NCBI GenBank assembly: GCA_963920705.1
Contig: OY987225.1
Span: 3,050,501 to 3,114,500 of the forward strand
From: Odiellus spinosus
Taxonomy: Eukaryota; Arthropoda; Arachnida; Opiliones; Phalangiidae
Direction: 5' to 3'
DNA length: 64,000 nt
Position 1 is the stretch's first letter. Each line of letters starts with the position of its first letter. The notes beneath the pieces are model-generated. The model ran no database searches. It was not told the DNA's origin and saw nothing but the letters and a program-made list of their open reading frames with translations. A program made the translations under genes and the position numbers. This document shows, one piece after another, positions 34,568-64,000 of this stretch.

Positions 34568-35257
34568 GCGAGGACCGATGGTTAACAACTTTAGTTATGC
34601 GGCAAGGCTATCGTGTCAAATACAGCGCGAATTCCGTTGTTTATACGCAAGCCCCGGAATCGTACGACGAGCTTTTTAAACAACGTCGTCGCTGGGAACC
34701 ATCGACTTTAGTCAATAACATGGATATTTTGTTCAAGGAAACCGATATCCTACGCAAACGCACCTACTTATGGATTACGTACATATCACTAATAATCTTC
34801 AGCATCTTCATGGCACCAAGCAATATATTTTTAGTGATAACGCATATGACTTATTCCGTCTTGCAAATACCTTGGATAGTGTCTTTATACATTAACCTCA
34901 CGTTGGTTATGGCTTTCGTCGTAACCTGTTTTCGTGCTAAAAACCATCAACAAATACGTTTCGCGAAGATGTTAAGTTGCGCGTACGCTCTTTTAACATC
35001 TATATTCATTATCCAGAAGACGATAGAGTTCCAATTTCAGTTGCAATTTAGATTTTTGTTACCAATTATAGTGCTACAACTTTTATTCTTAGGTATTTTA
35101 CACCCGAATGATTTTACTAGTTTATTATACGCCGTTCCTTATTTCGTCTTAGTACCCACAATGCAATTCTTGGTACAGATATATTCTGCCATAAATTTGA
35201 ATAATGTCTCGTGGGGAACGCGGGAAGACACCAGTGATACAAACTCTTTTCTTAAAG
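34568..35257 (+). CDS. CHS: Chitin synthase exon: EDRW, QRRRW and membrane helices
   Basis: Starts GEDRWLTT (34,570-34,593), the catalytic-base block, followed by QRRRW at 34,681-34,695, the processive-polymer signature of chitin, cellulose and hyaluronan synthases. After that come at least five hydrophobic helices and the SWGTRE motif (35,209-35,226) conserved in animal enzymes. Acceptor ATTCTAG ends at 34,567; donor GTATAT starts at 35,258. Phase is consistent on both sides. From 34,858 onward this exon is repeated inverted at 63,600-64,000. The frame runs on past the donor into intron sequence with a 20-bp tandem duplication (35,281-35,320) that the right-arm copy lacks. Confidence 0.92.
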
Positions 35258-35738
35258 GTATATGCCACATTAAAGTAGACACGCCACCTGATTCGATAGG
35301 CACGCCACCTGATTCGATAGGATCCTTGTCGAATCGATTTTATCGATAGAAAATGAAAAAATTCCTAGGCGGTTTTACATACGCGTGACGTATGTGCTGA
35401 AATGAAAGAAATCGTCTATCCCCAATCAGGAAAAAATCTAATTTGGCCAAAAAGCGTCCAAATTGGTAAATTCTGACAGAATTCGATCAAACAGACCAAA
35501 TAAAATATCCTGAATTCAACAAAAGTCTAAAATGTCCTTGGTCCATTTTGAGGAAATTTTCTATTATTATAGATTAGTTACGCGAGCCTGGTGGGAGATA
35601 GATTAAACAAAGCTAGAATCGAGTTAGGTTGCGTGTCTACTTTAAAATAATTTTTGCTTATACACACATTTTAAAATAAAAATGCCTTAATATTTTCATT
35701 TAACAATAGTTAGTAAAAATTGTAATATACGCAAAAAG

Positions 35739-36062
35739 CAAGAATAGATTCAACATAAGAATATCGAACCGTACGCTATACCTCTGGTATAACGCTAGTT
35801 TCAAGCGGGTGGAGCTTCCTAGATTTGACATTATACGCGTTATGATTTTCACCCTATCACGAGCTTTCGAGGTCCGCGACAGAGAGCTAGCTCCGCCGGC
35901 AGCGCCTATCCCCGCAGCCTGATATCCTCCCCCCCGCACTTATCGTAGAAAACCTCCAATCGCTTCCTGTGCACGTGACATGAGGCGCGGCGTAAGACCT
36001 CCGTATACTCCATCCGCTTGAGACTAGCGCGCGGACAAAGGTATAGCTCTTCCATATTCTTG
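35739..36062. mobile_element. Family-C MITE, copy 3 (left palindrome arm)
   Basis: Perfect flanking CAAAAAG at 35,732-35,738 and 36,063-36,069. Its right end has lost about 17 bp between two ATTCTTG words relative to the right-arm copy at 62,830-63,149. Shared by both arms, so the insertion predates the duplication. Confidence 0.88.
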
Positions 36063-36295
36063 CAAAAAGTTCTGTTTGTACAACCCTCTTCCGTGACATG
36101 TTCTGAACATATTGAACTGACTGACTGGCTACTTTAACTGGAGCTAATGGTAAATTCCGTTACAGTTAACATTCATTTTTAATAGATGATTTCTAAAGTA
36201 ATTAACGTTAATTGAAGAAATAAGCAGTATGGCGTGTTTTTAAATGTGGTTTCTATTGGAAGACAGTTATTAAACAAGGATTTAACCTTTTTCAG

Positions 36296-36725
36296 ATAAT
36301 GGGCCAAGTGATTACGAGTTAATAACTAGTGAAGATTACTGGACTCGCCAGGCACCATTTAAAGAAGCTACGTTTACGGAATTACCAGCAGATGAGTTAC
36401 GATTTTGGGAAAATTTGCTTTTCAAATCGTTGACACCGATGGTATTAAATAGCGAGCAAAAACTTGAGCGTGAGCGATGCCTAATAAAGTACAGAAACTC
36501 CGTGGTTTTGTTTCTGGGTGTTGTTAGTTTCAGTTATATTCTCTCGAGGCAACTTGGAATGTATATCTCTTTACCATACTCGAAGGAATTCAACGTGCCT
36601 TTCTTTTGGACTGATTCGGCTGATGAGGACACCTTCTACGTTAAGTGGCAAATAGTAGACCTAATAGTAGTGATTGTGTTTATTTTAATCACATCAATGC
36701 AGAATTTGGGGCTATTAGTTCACAG
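36296..36725 (+). CDS. CHS: Chitin synthase exon, C-terminal membrane segments
   Basis: Encodes an acidic linker containing SDYELITSEDYW and FWENLLFKSL, a basic helix (EQKLERERCLIKYRNS), and then two membrane stretches (VVLFLGVVSFSYIL and DLIVVIVFILITSM) ending LGLLVHR. This matches the layout after SWGTRE in animal chitin synthases, where an FW-E-L segment is followed by the last helices and an HR before the tail. Acceptor TTTTTCAG ends at 36,295; donor GTAACG at 36,726. The inverted copy at 62,169-62,595 has three amino-acid changes and one missing codon, both frames open. Confidence 0.85.
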
Positions 36726-38534
36726 GTAACGTACTATAGATTTATAAAAATCCAAACCCGATTTACCAAACAAACCATCCTAGCCTCCGATTCCCGGCCT
36801 GCATTAGTGGCTTCGCGAAACCAAGTCCGGTAAAACGAAGGCAATCTCGGACGTTTCTACTTATACTCATGATCAATGTTTCCAACGCTTGATTTTAAAG
36901 ATATGTAAATAGAAGTAGAGTAGAAAAGTCACGTGGCATTTGGCAGTGGCCTGCCTTAGGTTACGGTAAATCCAAGTGAAGTATTTTTGGCTGTCTTGTG
37001 CCAGGTGCTATTGAGCCAAGGTGCCGAAACTATTTTCCAAGGGATGAGGTGCTAGCAAGAATTTTAAAAACAAATTGATAAGGTGGGAGAAACTCTCTCC
37101 AGTCAGACAGGCGTGGATTTTTTTCTTCCTATATACTTTTGATATTACGGTATGCTGGGCTGTCATCACCAACTGGTGGGCCTCAAACGACCCTAAATTA
37201 TTATTTTGATTCAGGGAGATTACTTTTAAGCTGCAAAACGGGCTATAGAACGAGTGGAGGAAATAGCCACGTGATGTAAAGTCAATAATAGTTTAAATGC
37301 TTCCTAAAGTCAATGAAAGCAGGATCGAGTAAGACGACTGATTCCTTGGGGCTTAAGCTGAAATAACTTTCATCTAGTTTGGCTTTCATGGTCATGTGAT
37401 TTTATCACGTGGATTTTCTCCTCAAATTATGTGTACTTCTGAGAAGTTGGTATTTTTGTCCCATTCCGATAAAACGGGAAAAATTAATATTGCGAATCAG
37501 ATGAGTCTACAACACACTTCCTGTGACATTTCTGTTTTGCAGAAAATATTGAAACGAGGCAGAGGATTTTTTTAAATCTGTTTACGCAAAATAACGATTA
37601 GGTCCTACTTTGGTATTGAACAACCTTAGTAGAATTCTTATAATTTTAACTTTATGCAAAATAAGCGAAACAACTGTTAAAAAAGCTGTTGTTGTTTCTA
37701 ACTTTATAGTTTCTGGGTCAATTTCAAGAGTTGTTTTATGTTGTGAGATTACACTGCATTGGATACATTTATCTTATTGGGAATTATAGTGTAACAAAAT
37801 ATGACATTAAGTAGATGAATAAGTAGACGACACCCTGAGGCCAACTGCGTAATAGTATATTTTCATTTAACCACGTGATCCAAGGATGAAACATTTCATT
37901 TGTCGAGTTCTCTTTCGCGTTCGTGGGTCTTTTGTAAAAGACGTCTGAAGAATGCATCAGAGATGGCGGACAACATTTCGAACTACTTTTGTAAGAGAAA
38001 TGGACAAATGCGAAGAAACTGTAAACGTCTCAAGTGGTATGGAACATACTTTGCATTCAAAACCGATTTAAAATAGTTTAGCCAAAAGGAGAAACGTTCG
38101 CCACCAGGTTCTTCTTGCTAAATGATTTAAGCTTTGTCGCAGCATCGCTATCATTTCGATTGTGAACAACAAGCGGAGCACGCCTTTTTCATTGATTTTT
38201 TCCCCAAGGTTTATATCGCTCATATCTCCGTGTGAGTTCAGATTAACTTTAGGACCATAGTTCTTTGGTGGACTTGTCATATTTCCCCCCGTGGAATGTA
38301 CCACGAATTTGCAACACAATCTCTTTGTAACACCCTGCATAAGATTATATTAAGTTAGTTTGAAAATAATTTTAGTTCGATTCTATCGATATCCGATTAA
38401 TCTCTTATTTTGTTTTATCCGTGAATAATTATGAGACTCATAAGCGAGTTTTCGATTAAATTATTGTAATTATGCAATTGGTGAAAAATGCAATTAATAT
38501 AGTTTCTGAAACCTATTTCCTTAAAATTTTCCAG
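36726..38534. other. Palindrome-arm noncoding DNA
   Basis: Present inverted in the right arm at about 55,930-56,560 and 61,215-62,168, where a Ty3/gypsy element interrupts it. The small frames here are not conserved between the arms. Confidence 0.5.
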
Positions 38535-38661
38535 ATATTCGATGATAAAGGATAATTTAACTTTAGTTCGAATAATAAAGAACTTCGTTGTATTGTTCAA
38601 AATAATTTGGTTTCTGTCCAATGGAGAAACGGTTAACCAAAAAAGACCAGGCTCTTTTTAA
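38535..38661 (+). CDS. CHS: Candidate terminal exon of chitin synthase, left copy
   Basis: After an acceptor (TTTTCCAG, ends 38,534), the frame that continues from the LVHR exon stays open for 42 codons to TAA: a short basic, hydrophobic tail with VVLFKIIWFL and QKRPGSF. The right-arm equivalent (55,282-55,405, minus) keeps acceptor, frame and stop despite several substitutions and a 3-bp indel. This frame-preserving pattern is the main support. No family match is claimed. Confidence 0.35.
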
Positions 38662-39889
38662 CGTTAAACAGTTTGTAAAAGCATCTTTTTAGGTAACTAG
38701 TTTCGGGTAACTAGTGAACATCGCTAAAGTAGCGGATAATTGATAATTCCGAGCACAAAGACGATAGGGGAGCGATGTTAGAATTGTTACCATCGACTTT
38801 TGTCTTCAGAAGCAGGGCTAAAAATTAAAAGGGGTCTTAACACTTTGCCGCTTTTATTTCCTACCTTTCTCTTTTCTAGCCATTCCTCAGAAGTCTTTAA
38901 AAGATGGCCAAAATATCCTAGTTAATTTTCAGTCAGTTGTTGAAGTCCTTAAATTGACGCTTTAAAAATAAATGTTTTGTATATTTATCAGATTTCTATC
39001 GAAATTACTGTCACACCGTTATATTTTACATTGCACGTTAACATATCTGGCGAGCGATTAAAATAACGTTAGCCAGTAACAACGTGACGAAAAATGCGAT
39101 GAATATACATTTTCATTTAGTCCTAAAACTTGGTACTTAAAAAGTTCGTTGACTTTCGGATGATCTTAGCTTAAACAAAATCAACTTGAGTCATTACTAC
39201 TTGCTCCAATTCAAGCAAAAAAAAAAAAAAAAAAAAATCGAATGTGATCTAGGCTGGATGGTATTCATTTTCAATACAATCGTATTCTGTCTAATAACAG
39301 AATATTATGGCCTTTCTTTTTTAGTCTACGAAATTATCTTAAATGCCTCAAAATACATAAATTTTTTTAGGTGCCGCTCACTATTGCTTCTGATTCAGGA
39401 AAGGAACCGTTATGCTTTAGAGCCTGTTTTAAGCTTACATGTATGAAGTCAACACAGATGTGGGGAGGACACAACAACAAAGACACTGGATGAAGAAGTA
39501 CGGATGTGCTCTGAGTACAAACTAGTGCTCTCAAACTTGATATAACTTAATATTTCCTAATCTAAATCAAAAATTAAAATAAAAATAATCAAATTTTGAT
39601 TAAAATTAATAATGTAATATTTACAATAAAAACACCGAATATGATTGCACTTGAATTTTGAGCCTTGGTAAATTTTATTTTGACCACATCGGTAGTTTAT
39701 TTGAAGATAAATTCTATAAGAAAGCGTTACGTAGCATTGTTAACTAGGAACGTTTCCTACGTTTTAATCAAAGCTCGTACACGCGAGGGCTCTTAGATTA
39801 CTTTTTGGCAATTTACAGGCAAAATCATAAAAACGGCAATTTTGCGTTTGACGCAAAACATTCATTTTTTTCTTTTTTCAATTTTTTTA
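38662..39889. other. Palindrome-arm noncoding DNA, inner part
   Basis: Matches 53,430-55,281 inverted, apart from the family-A MITE there. The frame at 39,186-39,446 starts in an A tract and is repeated exactly in the other arm, but looks like AT-rich noncoding DNA. The site at about 39,000-39,020 is the empty counterpart of the family-A insertion. Confidence 0.5.
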
Positions 39890-40471
39890 CAAGGGGTAGA
39901 ATAAATAATTAAAGATTTTACAAGGGGTACCCCTTGTAAAAAAAATAATACACCCCCTATAAAATAAATAACCAAAGATTTTACAAGGGGTACCCCTTGT
40001 AAAAAAAATAATACACCCCCTATAAAATAAATAACCAAAGATTTTACAAGGGGTACCCCTTGTAAAAATAATACACCCCTTGTAAAATAAATAATCAAAG
40101 ATTATACACGAGGTACCCCTTGTAAAAAAATAATACACCCCCTGTAAAATAAATAATACACCCCCTGTAAAATAAATAATCAAAGATTTTAAGAGGGGTA
40201 CCAATTGTAAAAACAAAAAATACACCCCCTGTAAAATAAATAATACACCCCCTGTAAAATAAATAATACACCCCCTGTAAAATAAATAATACACCCCCTG
40301 TAAAATAAATAATCAAAGATTTTAAGAGGGGTACCAATTGTAAAAACAAAAAATACACCCCCTGTAAAAAAATAATCAAAGATTTTAAGAGAAGTACCCC
40401 TAGTAAAAAAAAATAATACACCCCTTGTAAAATAAATAATCAAAGATTTTAAGAGGGGTATACCTCTTGCA
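39890..40471. repeat. Satellite array, left block
   Basis: Tandem units of about 60 bp built from a palindromic core TTACAAGGGGTACCCCTTGT, an A tract, ATAATACACCCCCTGTAAAAT and AAATAATCAAAGATTT. At 40,220-40,310 a 22-bp subunit (AATAATACACCCCCTGTAAA) is amplified on its own. Interrupted by the family-D insertion and resumed at 51,052. Minus frames through it are repeat translations, not genes. Confidence 0.92.
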
Positions 40472-41159
40472 AAAAAAATGGTGTATTCCTGTTGAACCGA
40501 CTTCCATTCGACCGACTCATTATCGATTGTATTTATCATTTATATTATCGATATTTTCTGGGTCCCATTCGACCGATACAATATCGATTGAGGAAAATGT
40601 TGATGATGATATATTATAATAGAATGACTTTAAGTCACCGTGGCGTAGTGAAAGAAAGTCGAGGTTAGTTTACGTTAAAGGTTAGTTTATATTTTTTGAC
40701 TTTGGTGGATTGTTTCTGTTATTTTATGTTGTCACTGTGGTGTAGTTTTACGATAATGGTTAGGTTAGGTTAGGTTAGGTTACAATTACTCCTGAATATG
40801 AATTAAAAAAATAAATATAAATCAGCAATTCACTTCATAAAATTAAGTTCCAGGGATCTGAAAGTATTTGGTTCTTCTAAACTAAATCTTGTGCTTAATA
40901 TTTTACGAACTGTTCGAGTGTAGTGCTCATTTTACTTGGCCATTAAATTAATATAAGTGAATCAGATTTCTCGCTTGCAAAGATTGATACAAGAGAGGAA
41001 TAGAAGGTCGTTTCCAAAACGACTCGAGCATCTTTTATAGTCCACTTCCGGTGGGATCGTGGGAGGAGTTATGATATTTCGTCCATGATTTCGTCTGCTT
41101 ACTACCCGTTTTTTTTTCGAATTTGAAATTCGGGGCGACGATCGTTTCCTGCTGTTGCC

Positions 41160-42105
41160 ATGAATCCCTTAAGGGCTGATCAGCTAAAAGGTTTGTAATT
41201 TTTTATTTAATTTTAAATATTTGAATATTTCTAAAAATTATATCAATTAAATTCTTTTAATATTTTGCAGTGCATTTACGTAAACTTTTATGTGAGACAT
41301 GTTCAGAAATTGAAGGGGAATCTGTAAATTCAAACGAGCAAGCTGTTTTTGGACGTTTTTCTAATATATTTAATATGAATCAGGATAATCTGGTTGAAGA
41401 TCATATAGGAAAACAATTAGAACTATTTAAAGTGGTGCAGAGTACCACAGAAAATGCGTATATTGAAAGTAGTTTAGCTATTTCTTTTCATGAAAGAAAA
41501 GAGGATTCGTTACTGTTGATAGTGTTGTCGCTAAATCCAGAGTTCGCAACATTATCAAAATGTGTTCAAAGAACATTCATTCAAAGAATTTATAGAAGGG
41601 TATTTTCTGGCTTAATTTCTGTTTTACAAATTGGATTAGAAGAATTAAGGAAACATACCCATGAAATGAAGGCAAAAAAAAACAGCTTTAGGTTTGGAAG
41701 ATACTTCAGTGAAAACAGAACGTTGGAAATTTAATGTTCAAAGAACCGAGGATGTACTTCGGTATGTCGCAGGGTTTTTAGTAAAAAAGCTGAAAAAGAA
41801 AGATTGCCCAAAAGAGATTTTGGATAAAATAGAAAGACAAGGACCGTCCTTATTAGATGAACTTGATAAATCTGAACAATGGATAGCAATGATCAACAGA
41901 GGAGGATTAATTCGAGTTGATGAAGTTTTTTTTAATCTAGTCATTAGGATGAAAGTTATTTCCGACAAGCATTATTCGGAATCTTTCCGCAATGTGAGAA
42001 ATAGTAATTTAAAGGAAAACGCAATAGATGAAATCATGATAGATACACTTATTGTAGGATACTGGAAAAAGATTGCAAACATCGACACGAATCACAAGTG
42101 GCTAA
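41160..42105 (+). CDS. Transposon-borne gene with P-transposase C-terminal-like domain
   Basis: Exon 1 (41,160-41,190) encodes MNPLRADQLK and ends at a GTTTGT donor. Exon 2 starts after TATTTTGCAG at 41,271, in phase, and runs to a strong donor GTAAGT at 42,106. The first part is unrecognised. The second (VLRYVAGFLVKKL; then MINRGGLIRVDEVFF) resembles the IAGY-K and RGGL region near the C-terminus of P-element/THAP9-like transposases. An A9 run at 41,674-41,682 shifts the frame by one between the two parts, so the copy needs a one-base correction or is mutated. It lies opposite in strand to the transposase, so it is not simply its missing end. The 3' exon after 42,106 was not found; the Penelope-like fragment may have displaced it. 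Confidence 0.5.
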
Positions 42106-42243
42106 AGTAAGTAGCCGATACATTTATGAATTATTAACGTTGAATTTTCTAATATAAGAGTCCATGGTAAAGTAATATTTAAAAATGTTTATAAAAGGAA
42201 GAAACGCATGGAGTAGATGGAGTTAAGTTTTTATTGATAAAAA

Positions 42244-42305
42244 CTGTAACTGTGTCGAGAAAGCTTTCGACTTCGTAAAGTCTTCTTCAGTCTAACTAGT
42301 TACAG
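42244..42305 (-). ncRNA. Hammerhead-ribozyme-like motif
   Basis: On the minus strand: CTGTAACT, then CTGAAGA, then a 5-bp stem with UACG loop (GACTT/AAGTC), then GAAA, then AGCT, then AGTTACAG. CTGAAGA fits the CUGANGA core, GAAA the second core block, and the outer 8 bp pair as stem I. Stem III would be only two pairs without loop, as in the minimal hammerheads described in Penelope-like elements. The stem I interior does not pair well. Confidence 0.4.
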
Positions 42306-42453
42306 AGCTCTACAAGTTTATATATAGCAAAAAAATAATAAAAAGTACACAAAAATAAGGGGTAAACTGACATTTCAAAACAAAATTACATTCATGTCAA
42401 TGTTGACGGCCGTGAGGGAGAAATACAATGAAAAGGAAGGGCGTGGTAAAGCG

Positions 42454-42790
42454 TCATTTAAGGATAGAACCCCAAAACTTTACGTTGAAACTTCCGGTGT
42501 CAAGATTTAAGGATGCGTGTTTTTCAATATACAAGGGTTCAACAAATTTTCTACGTGACCAATTAGTTTCTTTGTGCAAAATACTTGCCCCATGCCAGTC
42601 AATCACGCAGGTAGGGGTCCGGTTGTTCCAGAGGTGGTTCGCGATACCGTTAGTGAAATTTCTATCTCTTACGCAATTCTGATGTTCTTTTATTCGAACT
42701 TTGAGTTGGCGCTTAGTTTCACCCACATACGACTTTCCACAGTTACAATCAATTTTGTAAACAATCCCACGTTCAGTAAGGGGGGAAATT
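42454..42790 (-). pseudogene. GIY-YIG endonuclease fragment of a Penelope-like element
   Basis: The minus strand reads RGIVYKIDCNCGKSYVGETK and then RIKEHQN, the two halves of the GIY-YIG motif with the CxC insertion and the following R-x-x-EH block found in Penelope-like elements. The domain continues with WNNRT and a terminal TxLN-like helix to about 42,454. No start codon or RT, so it is a fragment. Confidence 0.75.
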
Positions 42791-42922
42791 GGTTTAATTT
42801 TTGAATTTAATACGGATTTTAAAGTGTTTTTATTAGAGCTTACTAGTTTTATTTGAAATTTACTTTTTAAAACTCCATCTACTCTATGCGTTTCTTCCTT
42901 TTATAAACATTTTTAAACATTT

Positions 42923-43759
42923 ATGAATACTCGTGGGAAGGTCCTTGTGGGTGACGTTTTACAGCAATATCAGCATGATATGAAAGAATCTCTAAAGGCC
43001 AAAAAGGCATTAAGAAAATTACTGGAAGAAAAATCCGAGGCTGCTGCTTCAAAAATTAAAGAAGTGTCACAAAACATAGACGTTAATGCTAGCAAATCCA
43101 CAGCCAGTCCTTCAAAAATTAATAAAACTCTGAAAAATAAAGAAAACTCCCCACTGAAACCAAGTACAAAAACATTATGTCGAAGTATTAGCTCTACTAC
43201 TGCGATAAAAAACCAAAAACTACAACCTTCTGTGATTAAAAACTCAAACAAATCTGCTAATTTAACAGCTACTACTGTGATTACGAAACATAACTTACCA
43301 GCTACTACTGTGATTACGAAATATAACTTACCAGCTACTACTGAGACTAAAAACCCAAAAACAGTTAGAAGAGCCATTCTAAATACACCTTTATTTAGAA
43401 ACGCGATAATTATTACTCCTGTTTATCAACAACCCAAGGTAGCTACTGCTGTAAACAGTAAGAAAGCGATAACTAATCCTGCAATTAGAAATTTATGTAC
43501 TAAACATCCCAAACTAATTACTAATGTAATTGGAAATGCAAAAAAATTCACTCCTTCCCATAAAGAAGAAAATGTACCTGATATGAGTGCAAGCTCCAAA
43601 ATACCAACTACATCTACCGTGATTAAAGCACCGGCTGCACTGCCTAGTACAAATAGCCGTCAAAACATTAATCAAACTATACAAAATAACTCAATCAAGG
43701 ATGATTTAAGCTTCTTAGAAAATGATCCTGACCAGGATTTATTTCTTCAGTATTTATAA
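42923..43759 (+). CDS. Transposon-borne 278-residue Ser/Thr/Lys-rich protein
   Basis: An intact frame from ATG to TAA. The first 50 residues form a charged, probably helical segment (QQYQHDMKESLKAKKALRKL). The rest is rich in Ser, Thr, Lys, Asn and Pro, with a duplicated TTVITK-NLPAT unit, and ends in an acidic-hydrophobic tail (FLENDPDQDLFLQYL). I recognise no family. It is convergent with the transposase gene, whose stop is only 45 bp away, and lies inside the P-type transposon, so it is probably a second element gene or part of the gene at 41,160. The high positive charge would suit a DNA- or RNA-binding accessory protein, which is inference only. Confidence 0.6.
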   Translation: MNTRGKVLVGDVLQQYQHDMKESLKAKKALRKLLEEKSEAAASKIKEVSQNIDVNASKSTASPSKINKTLKNKENSPLKPSTKTLCRSISSTTAIKNQKLQPSVIKNSNKSANLTATTVITKHNLPATTVITKYNLPATTETKNPKTVRRAILNTPLFRNAIIITPVYQQPKVATAVNSKKAITNPAIRNLCTKHPKLITNVIGNAKKFTPSHKEENVPDMSASSKIPTTSTVIKAPAALPSTNSRQNINQTIQNNSIKDDLSFLENDPDQDLFLQYL

Positions 43760-43804
43760 TTTTCAAACCAATTGTTTTTTACAATTAAAGTTTTTGTTTT
43801 TAAA

Positions 43805-44034
43805 TTAAACTATTTTCGTATTTCCACCAATAGCTTCTAATACAAATCCTTTTAAAGATTCTAATTTATCGATATTTGATTGGTACAGCCACACAGAGGG
43901 ATTGTTGTTTCTGCCTCCAGCTGACCTCATCCGTCCAAAGTATTGCTCTAGTGGATCCTGATTTAAGTGCCGCGTTAGCACATACGGTGTCCCCTTACTC
44001 AAAAGAAATTTGACAATTCCAACTGTTGAACGAG
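43805..44034 (-). CDS. P-type transposase, last exon
   Basis: Encodes ARSTVGIVKFLLSKGTPYVL then RHLNQDPLEQYFG and GGRNNNPSVW. The NQDPLE-FFG and NNNP blocks are diagnostic of P-element/THAP9 transposases; the glutamate of DPLE is the likely third catalytic acid. Acceptor ATCTAG precedes 44,034; the codon split with the previous exon is in phase. Ends in TAA 45 bp from the convergent plus-strand gene. Confidence 0.85.
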
Positions 44035-44107
44035 CTAGATTTTTTTAAGATTGTTCAATTAATTTCTGTTGATCATTAAAACTGTGTACAAAATGCACAA
44101 TGTATAC

Positions 44108-44203
44108 TAGGGCTTTAGTGGAGGACTCGGGTACTCGTGTGAGTCCTGGAAAACCGGTTTGCGGGTATTCCGACTCACATTTTCGAGTACTCATACACCC
44201 CTA
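44108..44203. mobile_element. Tiny hAT-like MITE, 96 bp
   Basis: Ends TAGGGCTTTAG and CACCCCTA, with GAGTACTCG-like and GTGAGTC words pairing inside. Flanks ATGTATAC and ATGTATAG match at 7 of 8. Lies in the last intron of the transposase. Confidence 0.6.
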
Positions 44204-44286
44204 ATGTATAGTGTACAAACTAGAGGATGGTTTTAGTTAATTTTGTTCAAGATTTTAAGGGTTGATGGATGTAGCCGAGTAGTTAC

Positions 44287-44422
44287 CAGTCATTTTGAGA
44301 CCATCAATTGTCTCATGGCTAAGAAGCATCTTTGCACGTTGCGTAGCTGTGTATTCTCCCTCTCGGCAAAAGACATTCGTTTTCCAATCATCCAAATACT
44401 TGATAAAATCGTACTCGAGCCA
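44287..44422 (-). CDS. P-type transposase, middle exon
   Basis: A 136-nt exon encoding WLEYDFIKYLDDWKTN and MLLSHETIDGLKMT. The YL-W and Q-A/S-x-ET-GL-T blocks are conserved between the insertion domain and the last exon in P transposases. Acceptor CTTTATAG and donor GTAACT; phases agree with both neighbours. Confidence 0.82.
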
Positions 44423-44482
44423 CTATAAAGAAAATAGTAGTAACTTTCACGAACTCTGAAGGAGAAAGCTTTGAATGTTTAC

Positions 44483-46404: not shown

Positions 46405-46489
46405 TTTTTTTTTTTTTTTTTTTCTCTATTTTATTGACGAGCTAGGGCTAGTATAGCCTTACAGCTCCAGAAGGACCAACAATCACGCG

Positions 46490-46622
46490 CGAATGATAAC
46501 TTTAAAAGTTTTAACAATGATAACTTTAAAAGTTTTAACAATGATAACATTAAAAGTTTTAACAATGATAACATTAAAAGTTTTAACAATGATAACATTA
46601 AAAGTTTTAACAATGATAACAT
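46490..46622. repeat. 24-bp tandem repeat in the LINE 3' region
   Basis: About five copies of AACAATGATAACATTAAAAG plus TTTT, identical or with single changes. Its minus frame gives a MLSLLKLL peptide repeat, an artefact. Confidence 0.9.
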
Positions 46623-50032: not shown

Positions 50033-50174
50033 AACCTTGAAGGGGGTAATAGGGTCTGGGGGGGATAAGGGATGCGAGGGGGAATTGGTGGTAAGTGGGG
50101 ATGGGGCTAGTAGTTTTTTGGGGGAAAGTTGACATTAAAGGGACGAGGGGCAACATCTGTAAGGAAGGGGCTGA

Positions 50175-53160: not shown

Positions 53161-54317
53161 GGGACCCTGTTATCATTTTTCTCATAGGAGTAGGTTCCAT
53201 GTGTGCTGTACCCGAAATCTGTATCTCTTTAAATAGATCTACTAAATTGTGTTAATCAGTTTGTTTAAAAATTGTAATTTATCATTCTAGAAAATAAGGG
53301 GTACCTTGTAAAAAATCATTTCTTTTCGATTGTAAAAAAATTGAAAAAAATGAAAAAAAAAAAAAAATTACCCCTTTTGTAAAAAAAAAACATTTTTTAT
53401 TGTTTTTTTACAAGGGGTACCGCTTGTAAAAAAATCGAAAAAAATGAAAGTTTTGCGTCAAAAGCAAATTTGCCGTTTTTATGATTTTGACTCTAAATTG
53501 CTAGAAATTAATCTAAGAGCCCTCGCGTGTACGAGCTTTGATTAAAACGTAGGAAACGTTCCTAGTAAACAATGCTACGTAACGCCTTCTTATAGAATTT
53601 ATCTTCAAATAAACTACCGATGTGGTTAAAATAAAATTTACCAAGGCGCAAAATACAAGTGCAATCATATTCGGTGTTTTTATTGTAAATAGTACATTAT
53701 TAATTTTAATCAAAATTTGATTATTTTTATTTTAATTTTTGATTTAGATTAGGAAATATTAAGTTATATCAAGTTTGAGAGTACTAGTTTGTACTCAGAG
53801 CACATCCGTACTTCTTCATCCAGTGTCTTTGTTGTTGTGTCCTCCCCACATCTGTGTTGACTTCATACATGTAAGCTTAAAACAGGCTCTAAAGCATAAC
53901 GGTTCCTTTCCTGAATCAGAAGCAATAGTGAGCGGCACCTAAAAAAATTTATGTACTTTGAGGCATTTAAGATAATTTCGTAGACTAAAAAAGAAAGGCC
54001 ATAATATTCTGTTATTAGACAGAATACGATTGTATTGAAAATGAATACCATCCAGCCTAGATCACATTCGAGATTTTTTTAACTTTTACTTTTAATGGAG
54101 CAAGTAGTAATGGCTCAAGTTGATTTTGTTTTAGCGTATGCTAAGATAAGCCAAAAGTCAACTAACGTTTTAAGTACCAAGTTTTAGGACTAAATGAAAA
54201 TGTATATTTATCGCATTTTCGTCGCGTTGTTACTGGCTAACGTTATTTTAACCGCTCGGCAGATATGTTAACGTTCAATTTAAGATATATCGGTGTGACA
54301 ATAATTTGAATAAAAAT

Positions 54318-54976
54318 CGAGGGGCTAGTCACTCGAGAAATCAGGTGTACAAAACCGGGGAAATCGATTTCCTGATTTGCAGAAATCAGAGGAAATCACT
54401 GGCAATCAGAAAAATATTCTGGAAAATTTGGAAATCACAAGAAATCAGAGAAAATCACAAGAAATCAGAGAAAATCACAAGAAATCAGAGAAAATCACAA
54501 GAAATCAGAGAAAATCACAAGAAATCAGAGAAAATCACAAGAAATCAGAGAAAATCACAAGAAATCAGAGGAAATCAAACGGAAATCTAAAGAAATCAGA
54601 GGAAATCAAATGGAAATCAAAAATCATTTTGGGAATCACAGGAAAACAAATGGAAATCAGAAATCATTTTGGGAATCACAGGAAATCAGAAATTTTGTGA
54701 ATCACAGGAAATCACTGGGAATCACGAGAAATCACCTGAATCAAATGGAAATCAAATGGAATCAGAGGAAATCAAATGGAAATCAAATGGAATCAGAGGA
54801 AATCAAATGAAATCAAATGGAAATCACCAATTTTTTGGGAAATCAAAGGAAATCAAATGGCAATCGGAGGAAATCACCAACTTTTTTAGAAATCCAGGAA
54901 TTCACTTGGTAATCACTGAAATATTTTGGAATCGGAAATCAGGTGTACAAAATATTTTGAAAGGACTAGCTACTTG
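54318..54976. mobile_element. Family-A MITE with GAAATCA repeats, copy 2
   Basis: Flanked by perfect 8-bp repeats ATAAAAAT at 54,310-54,317 and 54,977-54,984. The left arm of the palindrome shows the empty site (one ATAGAAAT at about 39,010). The left end CGAGGGGCTAGTC pairs imperfectly with the right end GACTAGCTACTTG. At 54,425-54,565 a 20-bp unit (AAATCACAAGAAATCAGAGA) is repeated seven times. An 8-bp duplication fits hAT or P mobilisation. The plus frames through it (RKSQEIREN repeats) are artefacts. Confidence 0.9.
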
Positions 54977-55281
54977 ATAAAAATCTGATAAATATACAAA
55001 ACATATAATTTTAAAGCGTCAATTTAAGTACTTCAAAAATTGTCTGAAAATTAACTAGGATATTTTGGCAATTTTCTAAAGACTTCTGAGGAATGGCTAT
55101 AAGAGAGAAACGTAGGGAACAAAAGGGGCAAAGTGTTAAGACCCCTTCTGAAGGCAAGAGTCGATGGTAACAACTCTAACATCGCTCTCCTGTCGTCTTT
55201 GTGCTTGGAATTATGAATTATCCGCTACTTTAGCGATATTCACTAGTTACCTTAAAAGATGCTTTTAAAAATTCTTTAACG

Positions 55282-55405
55282 TTAAAAAGAGCCTGGTCTT
55301 TTTTGGTTAACCGTTTCTCCATTGGACAGAAACCAAATTATTTTGAACATTACAACGAAGTTCTCTATTATTCGAACTAAAATTAAATCATCCTTCATCG
55401 AATGT
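55282..55405 (-). CDS. CHS: Candidate terminal exon of chitin synthase, right copy
   Basis: Inverted equivalent of 38,535-38,661, with acceptor TTTTTCAG, the same frame, the same stop and one codon fewer. See that entry; assignment is tentative. Confidence 0.35.
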
Positions 55406-55509
55406 CTGAAAAATTTTAAGGAAATATGTTTCGGGAACGATATTAATGGTATATTTCACCAATTGCATGATTGAAATAATTTAATCGAAAACTCGCTTAT
55501 GAGTTTTAA

Positions 55510-55846
55510 CAGAAGCCGATGAAACTCTCCTTTGAAGTCTACTACTCTAATGTTCCATATAGCGCTCCTCTCTGTATGGGTAAAATTCACAATTTTACGA
55601 GATCGGAGGGGTCCTACTTCATACCCCTTGTCTACGGAAAATTGGAAATTCTCTCTCTCCACAAACGACGACGTTTTTTGGACGAACTCCAAGGCTGCTA
55701 GAGATATTCGCTGGACGAACTCCCGCTCCAAAAATATCTACCGTTAGGAGGCGTACGAATCGCGCTTTTTGAAACTAACCCATACAGAGAGGGGTAGACA
55801 AGACCCGGGAGAAATAGACTTCAAAGGAGGGTTTCATCGGCTTCTG
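55510..55846. mobile_element. Family-B MITE, copy 4 (right palindrome arm only)
   Basis: CAGAAGCCGATGAAAC ends with perfect 7-bp flanks GTTTTAA at 55,503-55,509 and 55,847-55,853. The left arm lacks it near 38,410-38,440. Confidence 0.9.
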
Positions 55847-56566
55847 GTTTTAAACCAAAATAAGAGATTAATCGGATATCGATAAAATCGAACTAAAATT
55901 ATTTTTAAACTAACTTAATATAATCTTATGCAGGGTGTTATAAAAAGGTTGTGTTGCAAATTCATGGTATATTCCACGGGGAAAAATATGACAAGTCCAC
56001 CGAAGAACTAAGATCCTAAAGTTAATCTGAACTCACAGAGAGATATGAGCGATGGAAACCTTGAAATGGCCCATATACTGAAACGTTCAAGGCGTGCTCC
56101 ACTTGTTGGCCATTATTGTTCACAATCGAAAGGATAGCGATGCTGCGACAAACCTGGTGGCGAACGTTTCTCCTTTTGGCTAAATTATTTTAAATCGGTT
56201 TTGAATGCAAAGTATGTTCCATACCACTTGAGACGTTTACAGTTTTTTCGCATTTGTCTATTTCTCTTAAAAAAACTAGTTCGAAATGTTGTTCGCCAGC
56301 TCTGATGCATTCTTCAGCCGTCTTTTAACAAAAGACCCACGAACGCGAAAGAGAAATTGACAAACGAAATGTTTCATCCTTTGATCACGTGGTTTAAACG
56401 AAAATATACTATTACGCAGTTGGCCTCAGGGTGTCGTCTACTTATTCATCTACTTAATGTCAACTTTTGTTACACTATAATTCCCAATAAGAGAAAAGTA
56501 TCTAATGCAGTGTAATTTCGCAACTCAAAACCCCTCTTGAAATTGACCCAGAAATTATAAAGTTTG

Positions 56567-56763
56567 TGTTGTGTTTGTTGATTGAAGAATAATACCGGGT
56601 ATTTATCAAACGATAACAACTATTATTTATTATTGATGCAGGTAAGTTAAGAAATGGAGTTACAAGTTATGACTATTATACATGAGGGCCTGAGGCAGAA
56701 TGCCCTCCTCCTCTTTAGCCGCCTAGTTGGTAATGTCCCCTAGCGGCTTATCTAGTAACTAAC
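56567..56763 (-). repeat. 3' LTR of the gypsy element, 5'-truncated
   Basis: Nearly identical to 60,965-61,161 (few differences), so the element is young, but about 47 bp of the LTR are missing on the integrase side. Confidence 0.85.
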
Positions 56764-57723
56764 TAAAATGTACTTGTTTTCTATGGGGCCTGCAAAGTCT
56801 ATATGGACCCTCTGCCACGGTTCCTTTGGTCGTGGCCAAGATAGGTACGTGCTTCTTGGCATGGATGCATTGGTTTGGCAGGTGTTGCAACTTCCGGCTA
56901 TCTTTTCAATATCCGAGTTGATTTCCGGCCACCATATCTTTGATCTGGCTACGTTTCCTTGATGGGAGCTATGCAGTTCCGCGATCATTTCCTGTTGACC
57001 TGATTTTGGTATTATAACTTTATTGCCTCTTAGCAGGATATCTTCGTAGTGTGAGAGCTCTGATCTGACTCTGTAGTATGGCTCTAGTTCAATTGAGATT
57101 TTCCGCGTTGGCCAACCTTCTCTCATATGTTTTGATACCTGTTGCAGTACTTGGTCCTGTTGAGTGATTTGCTCAAGCTTCTTGACGTTTAAAGGACCCT
57201 TATCTATTTCTGTGAGTAACAGGACATATTCCATTGGGATTGGTGTCGTTACATCTTGTGTTGGAAGAGGTAAACGGCTTAATGCGTCCGCATTGCCGTT
57301 CAGCGAGCCCTTTCGGAATTTGATTTCGTAGCTGTATGACGCCAATAAAAGTGCCCAACGCTGGATGCGTGCTGCTGCCATCGGCGATATCTGTTTGTCA
57401 GCGCCGAGCAGTGTTACCAATGGCTGATGGTCAGTATGTAGGCTGAATTTCTTGCCATATTAGAAATCTCGGAATTTGACTACTCCAAAGATGATTGCGA
57501 GAGCCTCCTTTTCCAATTGTGAATAATTTCGCTCTGCGCTGGTGAGGCTTCGCGATGCGAAAGCGATTGGTTGGTCATATCCTTCGCTGTTGAGGTGAGA
57601 AATTACTGGTCCCAAACCAACCGGTGATGCGTCTGTGGCTAAATGTACCTCCTTATTGATATCGTAGTGGACTAGTAAATTTGAAGCTTTTATTGAAGAT
57701 TTTGCTTCCCGGAAGGCCTCATC
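56752..57723 (-). pseudogene. Gypsy RNase H and integrase remnant
   Basis: The minus strand reads HLATDASPVGLG, SLTSAERNYSQLEKEALAI and HTDHQPLVTLLG (RNase H), then ADALSRLP and, in integrase, LHSSHQGN, KIWWPEI, CNTCQ and HIDFAGP. A TAG stop lies just after KWNWTER (57,724-57,726) and a TAA interrupts the FRDF-YGKKF motif (about 57,461-57,463). Only the first catalytic Asp of integrase is left before the sequence runs into the LTR. Confidence 0.85.
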
Positions 57724-57726
57724 CTA

Positions 57727-58197
57727 GCGCTCCGTCCAATTCCACTTGGTGTCTTTATGAAGTAATTCATATAGAGGTGCCAATTTGGTTGCATTGATAG
57801 GTAAGAATCTGGAGTAGTAATTGAGCAACCCTAGAAATGAGCGCAGCTGCTCAATATTGTCGGGACGCGGAGAATCCATTATTGCTGTTATTTTGCTTGC
57901 CTGAGGGTGTAGCCCTGCATTTTTGTCCAGAATGCTCTCCAAATTGATGTTATCTTTCTCTTTCTGTCCTCCATCCGTCCTGTTTACTCTGGTGTGGTTG
58001 TAAATGGAAGGAAGTATGTTTAGCGAAGAGTATAACCACTTGCGTCCGCAAAGGTTTGGTCCTGGGCCCCGAACGATGAGTACTGGTAGAGTCGCAGTGA
58101 TATTATTGTATCTCACATTTAGTTTGGTGCGTCCTGTGATATGGAGGCTGTGGCCTGTGTATCCTTGCAGTGGCGCTTTCTCGAAAGGTTGAATATC
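57727..58197 (-). pseudogene. Gypsy protease end fused to the RT C-terminal end
   Basis: Encodes the latter half of an aspartic protease (LQGYTGHSLHITG, VLIVRGPGPNLCGRKWL). It then passes, after a short linker, straight into the end of reverse transcriptase (GLHPQASKITAI; QLRSFLGLLNYYSRFLP). The palm with YxDD is missing, so a deletion of several hundred residues has occurred. Confidence 0.8.
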
Positions 58198-59582
58198 AAA
58201 GAACAACCCAAACTGTCCATAGGAATTTGGGTAACGTAATGTTAAAATTTTTTGATTCGCCACTGGTAAAATTTTATTGTGATAGTAAACTAGGGTTGTG
58301 TCCTCACCTTTCTACCACAAAAATAATCATTTAACCATTATAGTCTGCGAATAAAAATCAATTGAAGTTTAGCTCCATAATGTTAAGGATAGGCCACATC
58401 GTTGGATTCGACAATGGAGTAGACTGTCTTCCCCCACCTGAAATCAGTTGAGATTTTGAATATTAATAGACACACGATAGATAAAGATTCTGGGAAAATA
58501 TAGTTTTGTAACTGCCATGGGATTTTTCTCAGCAACGATTTATATTACCCAGAATTTTGACATAATTTGATGTTCGGAAGAATAAAACGCCTGTGTAAGT
58601 GTTCAACCTGCCGAACAACAAAGTTTTGCAGCAAAGCAAATTCAAGGAGCGAGGCACTGACTATACAGCTAACTCGTATAGTCTTTGTGTTCTGAGAAAA
58701 CAAAGAGAAATAACACCGAAAAAGTATACTGTAGTGGTTTTTATTAAGAAACACTTTATGAGTAATTCAACGAAAAATAATTTTTTTGTAATGAGCGACT
58801 TTAAAGCAAAGCGCGCGGAGTCCTACGTCGCTTTGAAAATTGAAAAGTCCGGCTCTTTCAACGTTGACGTTTGTTGGGCTATAAACGACACGAAGATAGC
58901 GGTAGCTGGTATCAATCTAAATTGCGTGCAGTCTGCGACGATGCTGGTGATTTGGACCATTTACCTAACGTTGTTTGAAATATAATGTCAATAAAATTGC
59001 TATTTTTCGTCGAATTACTAATAATGTGTTTCTTAATAAAACCCCTACAGTATACTTTTTCGGTGTTATTTCTCTTTGTTTTTTTCAGAACACAAAGACT
59101 ATACGAGTTAGCTGTATAGTCTGTGCCTCGCTCCTTGAATTTGCTTTGCTGCAAAACTTTGTTGTTCGGCAGGTTGAACACTTACACAGGCGTTTTATTC
59201 TTCCGAACCTCAAATTATGTCAAAATTCTGGGTAATATAAATCGTTGCTGAGAAAAATCCCATGGCAGTTACAAAACTATATTTTCCCAGAATCTTTATC
59301 TATCGTGTGTCTATTAATATTCAAAATTTCAACTGATTTCAGGTGGGGGAAGACAGTCTACTCCATTGTCGAATCCAACGATGTGGCCTATCTTTAACAT
59401 TATGGAGCTAAACTTCAATTGATTTTTATTCGCAGACTATAATGGTTAAATGATTATTTTTGTGGTAGAAAGGTGAGGACACAACCCTAGTTTACTATCA
59501 CAATAAAATTTTACCAGTGGCGAAACAAAAAAATTTAACATTACGTTACCCAAATTCCTATGGACCGTTTGGGTTGTTCTTT
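58198..59582. mobile_element. Foldback inside the gypsy protease, with a loop ORF
   Basis: Two arms of about 585 bp (58,198-58,782 and 59,000-59,582) are close inverted copies, starting AAAGAACAACCCAAAC and ending in its complement. It interrupts the protease between the flap-side and N-terminal halves. The loop (about 217 bp) is GC-richer and encodes a 65-codon frame. No target duplication was identified. It resembles a long-TIR DNA element or a foldback. Confidence 0.75.
58791..58985 (+). CDS. Small frame in the loop of the foldback
   Basis: ATG to TAA, 64 residues, beginning MSDFKAKRAESYVALKIEK, with a hydrophobic end (MLVIWTIYLTLFEI). The base composition is unlike the AT-rich arms. It could be a captured host exon or element gene; I do not recognise it. 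Confidence 0.3.
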   Translation: MSDFKAKRAESYVALKIEKSGSFNVDVCWAINDTKIAVAGINLNCVQSATMLVIWTIYLTLFEI

Positions 59583-60660
59583 ATGTTTGAGTTTGATGAA
59601 CCATTCTTCGGTTATCATCGTGTGCCCGGATCCGTTATCCAGGTCGAAAGGTACAATAGTATCATTAACGTTGAATTCTATTACCTCCGCTGGTGGGACT
59701 TCATCATCTGTTTGCGTGAAGATAATTTTCGGTGTTTTTCCCGATATGTTGTAGACGGTCTCGTTGTATTCGGGGATATTCTCTGTAACTGTATCTTGAA
59801 TATGGTGACTTGTCTGATTTTTCATCTTATGATGTCCCTTTGGCTGTTCTTTCTTATGGTCTGCTACTTTGCTTTGGCATACTGCCCGTAGATGACCTGT
59901 CTTGTTACATCCGTGGCATACATTGTTGATGTAAGGGCAATCCCACGGTTTGTGCCCGGATTTTCCGCATCTGATGCCCTTGATATTGTTATGTGGAGTA
60001 TAACTAGAGATCTGGTTTCTCTTGGTGGAATTATTGCGATGTTGCTGCTGATGGTGTTGATAGTGTTTAACAGCATTGACGCCTGCGTCACTTGCTGCAC
60101 TCTGGCCATTCTGTGCTTTTATTTCCGAAGTATTCCTGGATGCTGTTTCCATGGATGCTCTTATGGCAGTCTCAAGAGTGACTTCTTCATCTTTTTCGCA
60201 GGACTTAGATTTTATTTTGCATTGCAGTATCCGCTATTCCTAACACTAACTGTTCCAATAAACGTTCATTCAAATTGTTCCCTTCGAACTTGCAGTACCT
60301 TGCCAGTCTTTTCAGTTCTACCACGTATGTAGCGATTGATTCTCCCGGTTTCCGATGTCTGGTTGCGAGATGGAATCTTTCCACGTATTTGCATGGTTTA
60401 GGGTTAAAATGAGAGTTCATTTTGTTCATCAATGTGTCGAAAGCCACCGTTTTTATATCTTCTGGCAGTACCAGATTGGTAAGAAGAGAAAGTTCGTCCG
60501 CTCCTAAGATAGTGAATAAGTAGTGCGCTTTCATTTCCTCCTTAACACCATTTATAGCGAAGTAAGATGTTAATCTTATGGTGTATTGTGACCATGATTC
60601 GTTCTTGCTTTCATATAATGGTAACCTTGTTCCTGGATTCCTTTCTATCTGTTGGACCAT
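59583..60660 (-). pseudogene. Gypsy Gag with zinc knuckles and start of protease
   Basis: From ATG 60,660 the Gag capsid-like part (RLPLYESKNESWSQYTIRL; RHRKPGESIATYVVELKRLA) is open to 60,205. A frame break (about 60,150-60,205) follows, then the nucleocapsid with two CCHC knuckles (CGKSGHKPWDCP; CHGCNKTGHLRAVC), and then the protease start, where the expected D-T/S-G reads DNGSG. The frame is cut at the foldback. Confidence 0.82.
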
Positions 60661-60964
60661 GTTTTCTTTTGTTTGGAAAATTGGTTGTGCAGATAGTTTT
60701 CTTTCCTTTATAATTTCGTTATATGGCGAAATTACAATCCACTTAACTGTGTAACCTTCCTAAGGTCTGTAAACGTGAGGTGAAGTTAAGCCTCTGCTTC
60801 AGGTTTGTTAAGGCAAGGTGATTCTAAGCCTTTGCTTCCTCATGGAGTTCTCATGCTGGTGGTGGTGCTCTCTGGTTTCTCATTCTTTGCCTCATGGGTA
60901 ATTTGGATTTCAGTTGAGGTGGTTTTAAATCTTCTTACATCCAGATCCTATCTCCGTCGCCATT

Positions 60965-61208
60965 TGTTGTGTTTGTTGATTGAAGAATAATACCGAGTAT
61001 TTATCAAACGATAACAACTATTATTTATTATTGATGCAGGTAAGTTAAGAAATGGAGTTAAAAGTTATGACTACTTTACATGAGGGCCTGAGGCAGAATG
61101 CCCTCCTCCTCTTTAGCCGCCTAGTTGGTAATGTCCCCTAGCGGCTTATCTAGTAACTAACGCCATCTAGTTAGAGTATTTACTACTACTATTATTATGG
61201 TTACAACA
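60965..61208 (-). repeat. 5' LTR of the gypsy element
   Basis: 244 bp, TGTTG...CAACA ends, full length. Confidence 0.85.
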
Positions 61209-62168
61209 GTTTGAAACAAGTTTTAACAGTTATTTAGCTTGTTTTGCATAAAGTTACAATTATAAGAATTCTACTACGGTTGCTCAGTACCAAAGTAGGA
61301 CCTAATCGTTATTTTGCGTAAACAGATTTAAAAAAATCCTCTGCCTCGTTTCAATTTTATCAGCAAAACAGAAATGTCACAGGAAGTGTGTTGTAGACTC
61401 ATCTGATACGCAATATTCATTTTTCCCGTTTCATCGGAATGGGACAAAAATACCAACTTCTAAGAAGTACAGATAATTTGAGGAGAAAATCCACGTGATA
61501 AAATCAGATGACCATGAAAGCCAAACTAGATGAAAGTTATGTCAGCTTAAGCCCCAAGGAATCAGTCGTCTTACTCGATCCTGCTTTCATTGAGTTTAGG
61601 AAGCATTAAAACTATTGTTGACTTCACATCACGTGGCTATTTCCTGAACTCGCCAGTTTTGCAGCTTAAAAGTAATCTTCTGAATCAAAATAATAACTTA
61701 GGGTCGTTTGAGGCCCACCAGTTGGTGATGACAGCCCAGCATACCGTAATATCAAAAGTAAATAGAAAGAAAAAAATCCACGCCTGTCTGACTGGAGAGA
61801 GTTTCTCACACCTTATCAATTTGATTTTAAAATTCTTCCTAGCACCTCATCCCTTGGAAAATAGTTTCGGCACCTTGGCTCAATAGCACCTGGCACAAGA
61901 CAGCCAAAAATACTTCACTTGGATTTACCGTAACCTAAGGCCGGCCACTGCCAAATGCCACGTGACTTTTCTACTCTATTTCTATTTACATATCTTTAAA
62001 ATCAAGCGTTGGAAACATTGATCATGAGTATAAGTAGAAACGTCCGAGATTGCCTTCGTTTTACCGGACTTGGTTTCGCGAAGCCACTAATGCAGGCCGG
62101 GAATCGGAGGCTAGGATGGTTTGTTTGGTAAATCGGGTTTGGATTTTTACAAATCTATAGTACGTTAC

Positions 62169-62595
62169 CTGTGAACTAATAGCCCCAAATTCTGCATTGC
62201 TGTGATTAAAATAAACACAATCATTACTATTAGGTCTACTATTTGCCACTTAACGTAGGTGTCCTCATCAGCCGAATCAGTCCAAAAGAAAGGCACGTTG
62301 AATTCCTTCGAGTATGGTAAAGAGATATACATTCCAAGTTGCCTCGAGAGAATATAACTGAAACTAACAACACCCAGAAACAAAACCACGGAGTTTCTGT
62401 ATTTTATTAGGCATCGCTCACGCTCAAGTTTTTGCTCGCTATTTAATACCAACGGTGTCAACGATTTGAAAAGCAAATTTTCCCAAAATCGTAACTCATC
62501 TGCTGGTAATTCCGTAAACGTAGCTTCTTTAAATGGTGCCTGGCGAGTCCAGTAATCTTCCCTAGTTATTAACTCGTAATCACTTGGCCCATTAT
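62169..62595 (-). CDS. CHS: Chitin synthase second copy, C-terminal membrane exon
   Basis: Inverted equivalent of 36,296-36,725 with acceptor TTTTTTCAG and donor GTAACG intact. It differs by three residues (Met to Leu, Val to Met, Ser to Ala) and lacks one Phe codon in the DEDT-YVKW loop. Open throughout, so this copy may still be functional. Confidence 0.85.
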
Positions 62596-62829
62596 CTGAA
62601 AAAAGGTTAAATCCTGGTTAAATAACTGTCTTCCAATATAAACCACATTTAAAAACACGCCATACTGCTTATTTCTTCAATTAACGTTAGTTACTTTAGA
62701 AATCATCTATTAAAAAGGAATGTTAACTGTAACGGAATTTACCATTAGCTCCAGTTAAAGTAGCCAGTCAGTCAGCTCCATATGTTCAGAACATGTCACG
62801 GAAGAGGGTTGTACAAACAGAACTTATTG

Positions 62830-63149
62830 CAAGAATAGATTTAACACAAGAATATGGAAGAGCTATACCTTTGTCCGCGCGCTAGTCTCAAGCGGATGTA
62901 GCCTACGGAGGTCTTACGCCGCGCCTCATGTCACGTGCACAGGAAGCGATTGGAGGTTTTCTACGATAAGTGCGGGGGGGAGGATATCAGGCTGCGGGGA
63001 TAGGCGCTGCCGGCAGAGCTAGCTCTCGTGATAGGGTGAAAATAAAAACGCATATAACGTCAAATATAGTAAGTTCCACCCGCTCGAAACTAGCGCTATA
63101 ACAGAGGTATAGCGTACGGTTCGATATTCTTGTGTTGAATCTATTCTTG
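62830..63149. mobile_element. Family-C MITE, copy 4 (right palindrome arm)
   Basis: Inverted counterpart of 35,739-36,062, with both full ends. Flanks CTTATTG and CTTTTTG match at 6 of 7. Confidence 0.85.
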
Positions 63150-63599
63150 CTTTTTGCGTATATAACAATTTTTAATAACTATTGTAAAATGAAAATATTA
63201 AGGCATTTTTATTTTAAAATGTGTGTGAAAGCAAAAATTATTTTAAAGTAGACACGCAATCTAACTAGATTAGAGCTTTGTTTAATTGACCTCCTCCCAC
63301 CAGGCTCGCGTATCTAATCTATAATAATAGAAAATCTCCACAAAATTGGGCGAAGGACATTTTAAATTTTTGTTGAATTCAGTATATTTTATTTGGTCTG
63401 TTTGATCGAATTCTGTCAGAATTTACCAATTTGGACGCTTTTTGGCCAAATTAGATTTTTTCCTGATTTCTTTCATTTCAGCACATACGTCACGCGTATG
63501 TAAAACCGCCTAGGAATTTTTTCATTTTCTTGCGATAAAATCAATTCGACAAGGATCCTATCGAATCAGGTGGCGTGTCTACTTTAATGTGGCATATAC

Positions 63600-64000
63600 C
63601 TTTAAGAAAAGAGTTTGTATCACTGGTGTCTTCCCGCGTTCCCCACGAGACATTATTCAAATTTATGGCAGAATATATCTGTACCAAGAATTGCGTTGTG
63701 GGTACTAAGACGAAATAAGGAACGGCGTATAATAAACTAGTAAAATCATTCGGGTGTAAAATACCTAAGAATAAAAGTTGTAGCACCATTATTGGGAACA
63801 AAAATCTAAATTGTAACTGAAATTGGAACTCTATCGTCTTCTGGATAATGAATATAGATGTTAAAAGAGCGTACGCGCAACTTAACATCTTCGCGAAACG
63901 TATTTGTTGATGGTTTTTAGCACGAAAACAGGTTACGACGAAAGCCATAACCAACGTGAGGTTAATGTATAAAGACACTATCCAAGGTATTTGCAAGACG
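63600..64000 (-). CDS. CHS: Chitin synthase second copy, membrane/SWGTRE exon (partial)
   Basis: Inverted equivalent of 34,858-35,257, cut by the window end. It keeps the membrane helices, SWGTRE and the GTATAT donor. Three residue differences from the first copy. The QRRRW and catalytic exons, if present, lie beyond the window. Confidence 0.88.

Follow-up and report, generated by a model that had tools for sequence, protein, structure and literature searches.

A probable inverted segmental duplication carrying the core of a chitin synthase gene in Odiellus spinosus

The DNA of Odiellus spinosus described here probably contains a genuine inverted segmental duplication, in which approximately 20 kb with the core of a chitin synthase gene is present twice, arranged tail to tail around a spacer of satellite and mobile elements. 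The window is a stretch of 64,000 nucleotides (positions 3,050,501-3,114,500 of contig OY987225.1, here C1, 35.4 Mb) from an assembly of 443 Mb in 286 contigs. It was analysed together with 40 kb to its left and 80 kb to its right on the same contig, 184 kb in total. Positions are counted from the first base of the window and continue past its end.

Geometry of the inverted repeat

When the window was compared with itself, 34,857-37,682 matched 64,000-61,221 in inverted orientation (93.75% identity in 2,848 columns). Closer to the spacer, three pieces (37,700-38,417, 38,436-39,000 and 38,991-39,878) matched 56,564-53,429, likewise inverted, at 87.4, 86.0 and 93.9%, respectively. Position 64,000 is only the edge of the window, and the inverted repeat extends beyond it. 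A giant imperfect palindrome around a 13.5-kb spacer had been proposed in a first-pass annotation of this DNA, and the extended comparison upholds that description with the following arms:

19,665-39,898, + strand: left arm, in collinear inverted blocks with the right arm; a probe across the left junction has no right-arm match before 19,665
53,418-76,857, - strand: right arm, in collinear inverted blocks with the left arm; 53,418-64,000 lies in the window and the outer end is C1:3,127,357

The left arm spans 20,234 bases (20.2 kb) and the right arm 23,440 (23.4 kb), of which 15,723 and 15,630 bases (~15.7 kb in each) are homologous, and the 13,519 bases between them consist of satellite and mobile elements. 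The same annotation had put the repeated sequence at about 5 kb and had limited the duplication to the 3' half of the gene; both estimates proved too small, because the window edge had cut the repeat.

For several of the blocks aligned between the arms, BLAST reports E-values of 0, well outside what chance would give. Searched against the whole assembly, the segment 34,858-36,500 has full copies in the two arms only, and every other match listed lies in a dispersed repeat of ~325 bp (query positions ~857-1,206), among the 40 of 1,416 candidate matches that were scored. The inner segment 37,690-39,890 has no match in the 90 kb of contig C6 (which carries the chitin synthase paralogues described below) or in the flanks. 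The locus thus has long collinear inverted copies, larger than dispersed repeats, between unrelated flanks, as is characteristic of a large inverted segmental duplication. At its outer edge the right arm abuts a dispersed element (76,848-77,027), and just outside it lies a 14-bp tandem array (77,378-78,818) of ~100 copies, which is ~99.9% identical to shifted versions of itself.

The satellite axis and the origin of the duplication

The spacer is occupied by the following features:

39,896-40,479, + strand: 63-bp satellite bordering the left arm on its inner side
40,480-51,055: mobile elements splitting the satellite
44,447-46,441, - strand: TNP-like transposase, 664-aa open frame
47,234-50,134, - strand: endonuclease and reverse transcriptase, 966-aa open frame
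51,056-53,148, + strand: 63-bp satellite toward the right arm, on the same strand as at 39,896-40,479

A large array of the same 63-bp satellite is present at 93,400-120,800, where its strand switches several times, and part of that array (114,428-120,150) has an 868-bp higher-order repeat that is ~99.6% identical.

Both arms run into the edge of the 63-bp satellite, and the alignment between them ends at GGTA, the dyad of the 26-bp palindrome TTTTACAAGGGGTACCCCTTGTAAAA (3,467 exact copies assembly-wide). This places the inner ends of a local inverted gene duplication, to single-base precision, in the middle of a palindromic satellite unit. Because arm homology stops at this dyad, fold-back priming there is plausible. 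Yeast offers documented cases of inverted duplications that arose by fold-back at short inverted repeats, including some whose centre is an 11-bp imperfect repeat (6-bp spacer) or a 5-bp repeat (35-bp spacer) (PMC10622511). The sequence shows the size and orientation of the arms, the exons that they share, the absence of others from the 60-67 kb searched, the unequal divergence and the lack of relationship between the outer flanks; the mechanism and the order of events are inferred from it, as would be any gene conversion and any enzyme made by either copy. The most likely route would be fold-back (hairpin) priming at the palindromic unit, or a similar form of break repair, through which ~20 kb with the core of a divergent chitin synthase would have been duplicated in tail-to-tail orientation about an axis lying in the unit or next to it. 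Satellite and mobile elements would have entered the axis later, and the arms would also have later received separate insertions and diverged unevenly.

Two observations weigh against fold-back in its simple form. Firstly, folding back within a long array would give satellite on opposite strands, whereas the spacer satellite lies on one strand at both sides, as judged from two 14-base words and from direct matches. Secondly, the coincidence of the dyad with the end of homology is one case and may reflect the usual ending of the 63-bp satellite. Inverted duplicates can also arise through staggered breaks. According to this explanation, the two copies would be by-products of a small inversion with staggered breaks, with the spacer being the inverted piece. 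This is a possible history, if a rather unlikely one, because a satellite running on one strand from end to end of the spacer, which it accommodates, does not follow simply from fold-back. Fragile breakpoints are the subject of a Drosophila inversion paper (PMC7584159). However, staggered breaks alone do not predict that homology should stop at the satellite dyad. Returning to fold-back priming, a broader version would have the 26-bp palindrome serve as a recurrent seed, with its arrays marking the axes of many gene-bearing palindromes in the species, and this we regard as very improbable. If other arrays of the 63-bp satellite had inverted flanks, the satellite sequence would be tied to a route of gene duplication, while a single case would amount to ordinary genome turnover.

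Chitin synthase exons and the state of the gene

Exons were located by tblastn with four paralogues from contig C6 as guides. These form a cluster of four more chitin synthase genes at C6:10,448,300-10,511,590, all on one strand and with N-terminal and last exons, and they resemble the chitin synthases of animals. The Pfam model Chitin_synth_2 gave nine matches over its cut-off in the assembly, five of which are on C6 (10.448-10.512 Mb); the other four are on C1, with two per arm. Six exons can be recognised per arm, in an order common to both (E1, E3, E4, E5, E6, E7):

20,195-20,314, + strand: left E1 (ATMWHE motif); right homologue 76,205-76,324, - strand, outside the window; tblastn with the C6 paralogues, HMM E ~1e-15 in both arms
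24,003-24,151, + strand: left E3 region, acceptor uncertain; homologue 72,245-72,393, outside the window; C6 exon comparison
25,323-25,667, + strand: left E4 (LALDGD); homologue 70,720-71,064, outside the window; C6 exon comparison, open frame
33,660-33,866, + strand: left E5; homologue 65,008-65,214, outside the window; C6 exon comparison, Pfam Chitin_synth_2 E 7e-10
34,564-35,238, + strand: left E6, compared part (GEDRW, QRRRW, WGTRE); C6 exon comparison; open frame 34,546-35,349 matches Pfam Chitin_synth_2 at E 1.1e-10
63,619-64,000, - strand: right E6, part within the window; the compared part reaches 64,293
36,307-36,726, + strand: left E7, C-terminal membrane part; C6 exon comparison, splice sites
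62,168-62,584, - strand: right E7, with one in-frame 3-bp difference from the left

All six recognised exons have open reading frames in both copies, and the splice dinucleotides that could be placed (those of E1, the E3 donor, and those of E4, E5, E6 and E7) agree between them, which bears out, apart from the uncertain E3 acceptor, the annotation's statement that both copies keep open exons and splice sites. The Chitin_synth_2 core is matched over the Pfam cut-off in both arms, including left E5 and E6, and left E4 has no match to this model. Among solved structures (E <= 0.001), the E6 peptide matches solely hyaluronan synthase 1 (E 1e-4). Near-identical chitin synthase copies do converge on a satellite-bearing spacer as first described. 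The dsRNA that the annotation suggested for such a pair, alongside chromosome rearrangement, would come from overlapping or hairpin transcripts; the distance between the two E7 exons is ~25 kb. Extending the contig to the right, as the annotation had advised, uncovered catalytic exons in the right arm as well. Since recognised catalytic exons are present in both arms in the same order, we reject the idea that the right copy is a 3' fragment alone, a case that illustrates how the edge of a window can lend a duplicated gene the look of such a fragment.

The recognised exons do not amount to the full set found in the paralogues. In the C6 genes, N-terminal membrane exons precede the ATMWHE exon, a short E2 follows it, and the final exon contains RFGTFSHIMADT or a sequence close to it. 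Neither the N-terminal exons, nor E2, nor the last exon with RFGTFSHIMADT was found near either C1 copy by tblastn with C6 exons across the 184 kb. HMMs were also run for six N-terminal blocks, for E1 and E2, and for the last exon, and from six-frame translations of the same 184 kb they recovered only E1, in both arms; these models were built on 3-4 paralogues, very diverged exons may escape them, and E1 is their sole positive control. One N-terminal query run against the whole assembly gave seven matches, all on C6. According to the excerpted text of a survey (PMC3942024), animal chitin synthases have conserved transmembrane patterns on both sides of the core, including several N-terminal segments. 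In the C1 copies, the part of the C-terminal transmembrane region encoded by E6 and E7 is present, whereas no N-terminal transmembrane segments were recognised upstream, over 60 kb for the left copy and 67 kb for the right. E1 retains an acceptor before RLF in both copies, at the position where an exon likewise begins in the C6 genes. As this acceptor lies only ~0.53 kb inside the outer arm edge, any exons farther upstream would be outside the duplication. Judged from the sequence, the two C1 copies seem to represent a single chitin synthase gene that was partial or strongly diverged when it was duplicated, and that gene was probably incomplete already.

Between E1 and E3, at 21,759-23,357, there are open pieces whose motifs we take to resemble those of a non-LTR retrotransposon. 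Because the stretch is homologous in both arms, these pieces apparently predate the duplication. The same interval is where E2 should lie, and tblastn for E2 in the left arm gave no line there at E up to 100.

Comparison of the copies indicates some constraint on the exons. Differences occupy 27 of 1,913 exonic sites (1.4%) versus 368 of 11,227 non-exonic sites (3.3%), and over the six exons dN/dS is 0.53, from 9 silent and 18 changing differences, with the codons around the 3-bp gap of E7 dropped. If both copies were neutral, 42.6 changing differences would be expected from block-matched introns, which differ by 2.83% (P 2e-5), versus 21.3 with one neutral copy (P 0.28), such that the count does not separate one constrained copy from two. 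Indels number 39 in 9,049 non-exonic sites and a single one, of 3 bp and in frame, in the 1,913 exonic sites. With one neutral copy, 4.1 exonic indels and 3.2 frameshifts would be expected, and the probabilities of seeing no more than one indel and no frameshift are 0.083 and 0.042, respectively. Changing differences are also unevenly spread, with 7 in 214 amino-acid-changing sites of E1 and E3 versus 11 in 1,292 such sites of E4-E7 (Fisher p 0.008, for a split chosen after the counts were seen). The same post hoc split sets the 11 in E4-E7 against expectations of 36.6 if both copies were neutral and 18.3 if one was (P 0.048). We take it as a lead that E4-E7 may be conserved relative to introns and E1 and E3 not.

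The conservation of E4-E7, the lack of frameshifts and the E1 acceptor kept in both copies are all features that would be expected if the locus held two complete, working convergent chitin synthase genes with remaining exons too distant or too diverged to recognise. We nevertheless find this doubtful, as neither tblastn nor the small HMMs located the N-terminal blocks, E2 or the last exon in the 184 kb, the assembly-wide N-terminal query reached only C6, E1 and E3 change at the neutral rate, and the six exons taken together are compatible with one neutral copy.

Divergence of the arms and comparison with known systems

Divergence between the arms is patchy. Across eleven collinear blocks it ranges from 0.6 to 10.6% (chi-square p ~1e-22), a spread that argues against a single date of duplication unless gene conversion or uneven mutation is admitted. 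Mismatches are clustered, with a variance/mean ratio of 4.38 compared to a maximum of 1.64 in 500 permutations. Such a pattern is compatible with gene conversion, and also with regional mutation. Conversion between the copies, as the annotation had suggested, may thus have contributed; the longest identical run (291) does not exceed the permuted maximum (306). In some species, haplotypes of one locus can differ by a few per cent. Differences of this size between the arms, together with a junction that would fall in a repeated satellite whose palindrome has thousands of exact copies, could suggest that two diverged haplotypes were joined end to end during assembly, but we judge this artefact unlikely, and more so than two complete genes, because joined haplotypes should match outside the arms, while here collinear homology ends at 19,665 and 76,857, the outer flanks (~60 kb left, ~67 kb right) have in common just scattered pieces of at most 461 bp (13 inverted, 7 direct), none of them collinear with the arms, and the 184 kb contains no Ns.

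The inverted segmental duplication at C1 is of a kind already known; what is new here, and appears real, is the pairing of partial chitin synthase copies and a suggestive palindromic junction. Like the fold-back duplications of yeast and cancer, as excerpted in PMC10622511, the locus has inverted copies, and a short inverted repeat may lie at its axis; unlike them, its axis is filled with 13.5 kb of satellite and mobile elements and the event is old. Mammalian sex-chromosome palindromes are likewise large gene-bearing inverted repeats with possible exchange between arms, and the excerpted reports give their arm identities as >99% or 99.9% (PMC3723533, PMC8981503, PMC6790999). In contrast, the aligned C1 blocks are ~83-99% identical, below the >99% arm identity of a palindrome maintained by conversion, and the arms have insertions of their own. 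Local duplication of chitin synthase genes is also seen in Lottia, where the excerpted text describes CS2-4 and CS7-8 as tandem copies (PMC3942024), and the present assembly has, in addition to the C1 pair, the four-gene cluster on C6. Unlike the tandem copies of Lottia, the C1 pair is inverted and both members are without recognisable N-terminal and last exons. A search of one open-licence literature collection found no apparently relevant paper that combines chitin synthase with inverted repeats and palindromes, nor any that brings together fold-back inverted duplication, palindromes, gene conversion and satellites, or false haplotig duplication and inverted palindromes in genome assemblies.

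The insertions specific to one arm are as follows:

56,565-61,220, - strand: retroelement in the right arm only, with 197-bp terminal direct repeats that are 98.0% identical
23,600-23,928: short element bounded by terminal inverted repeats, specific to the left arm; its empty site is visible in the right arm

The 98.0% identity of the terminal repeats, a short stretch on which to base a date, suggests that the retroelement was inserted after the duplication. Within it, at 58,198-59,582, is an internal inverted repeat of 583 columns that is 97.6% identical. Related AAATCA-rich arrays with units of ~10 and 20 bp are found at 576-873 and 54,432-54,894, the second being present in the right arm only. 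Short GGTTA arrays, of the TTAGG type that forms the telomere-like unit of arthropods, occur at the chromosome-internal positions 29,066-29,098 and 40,758-40,782.
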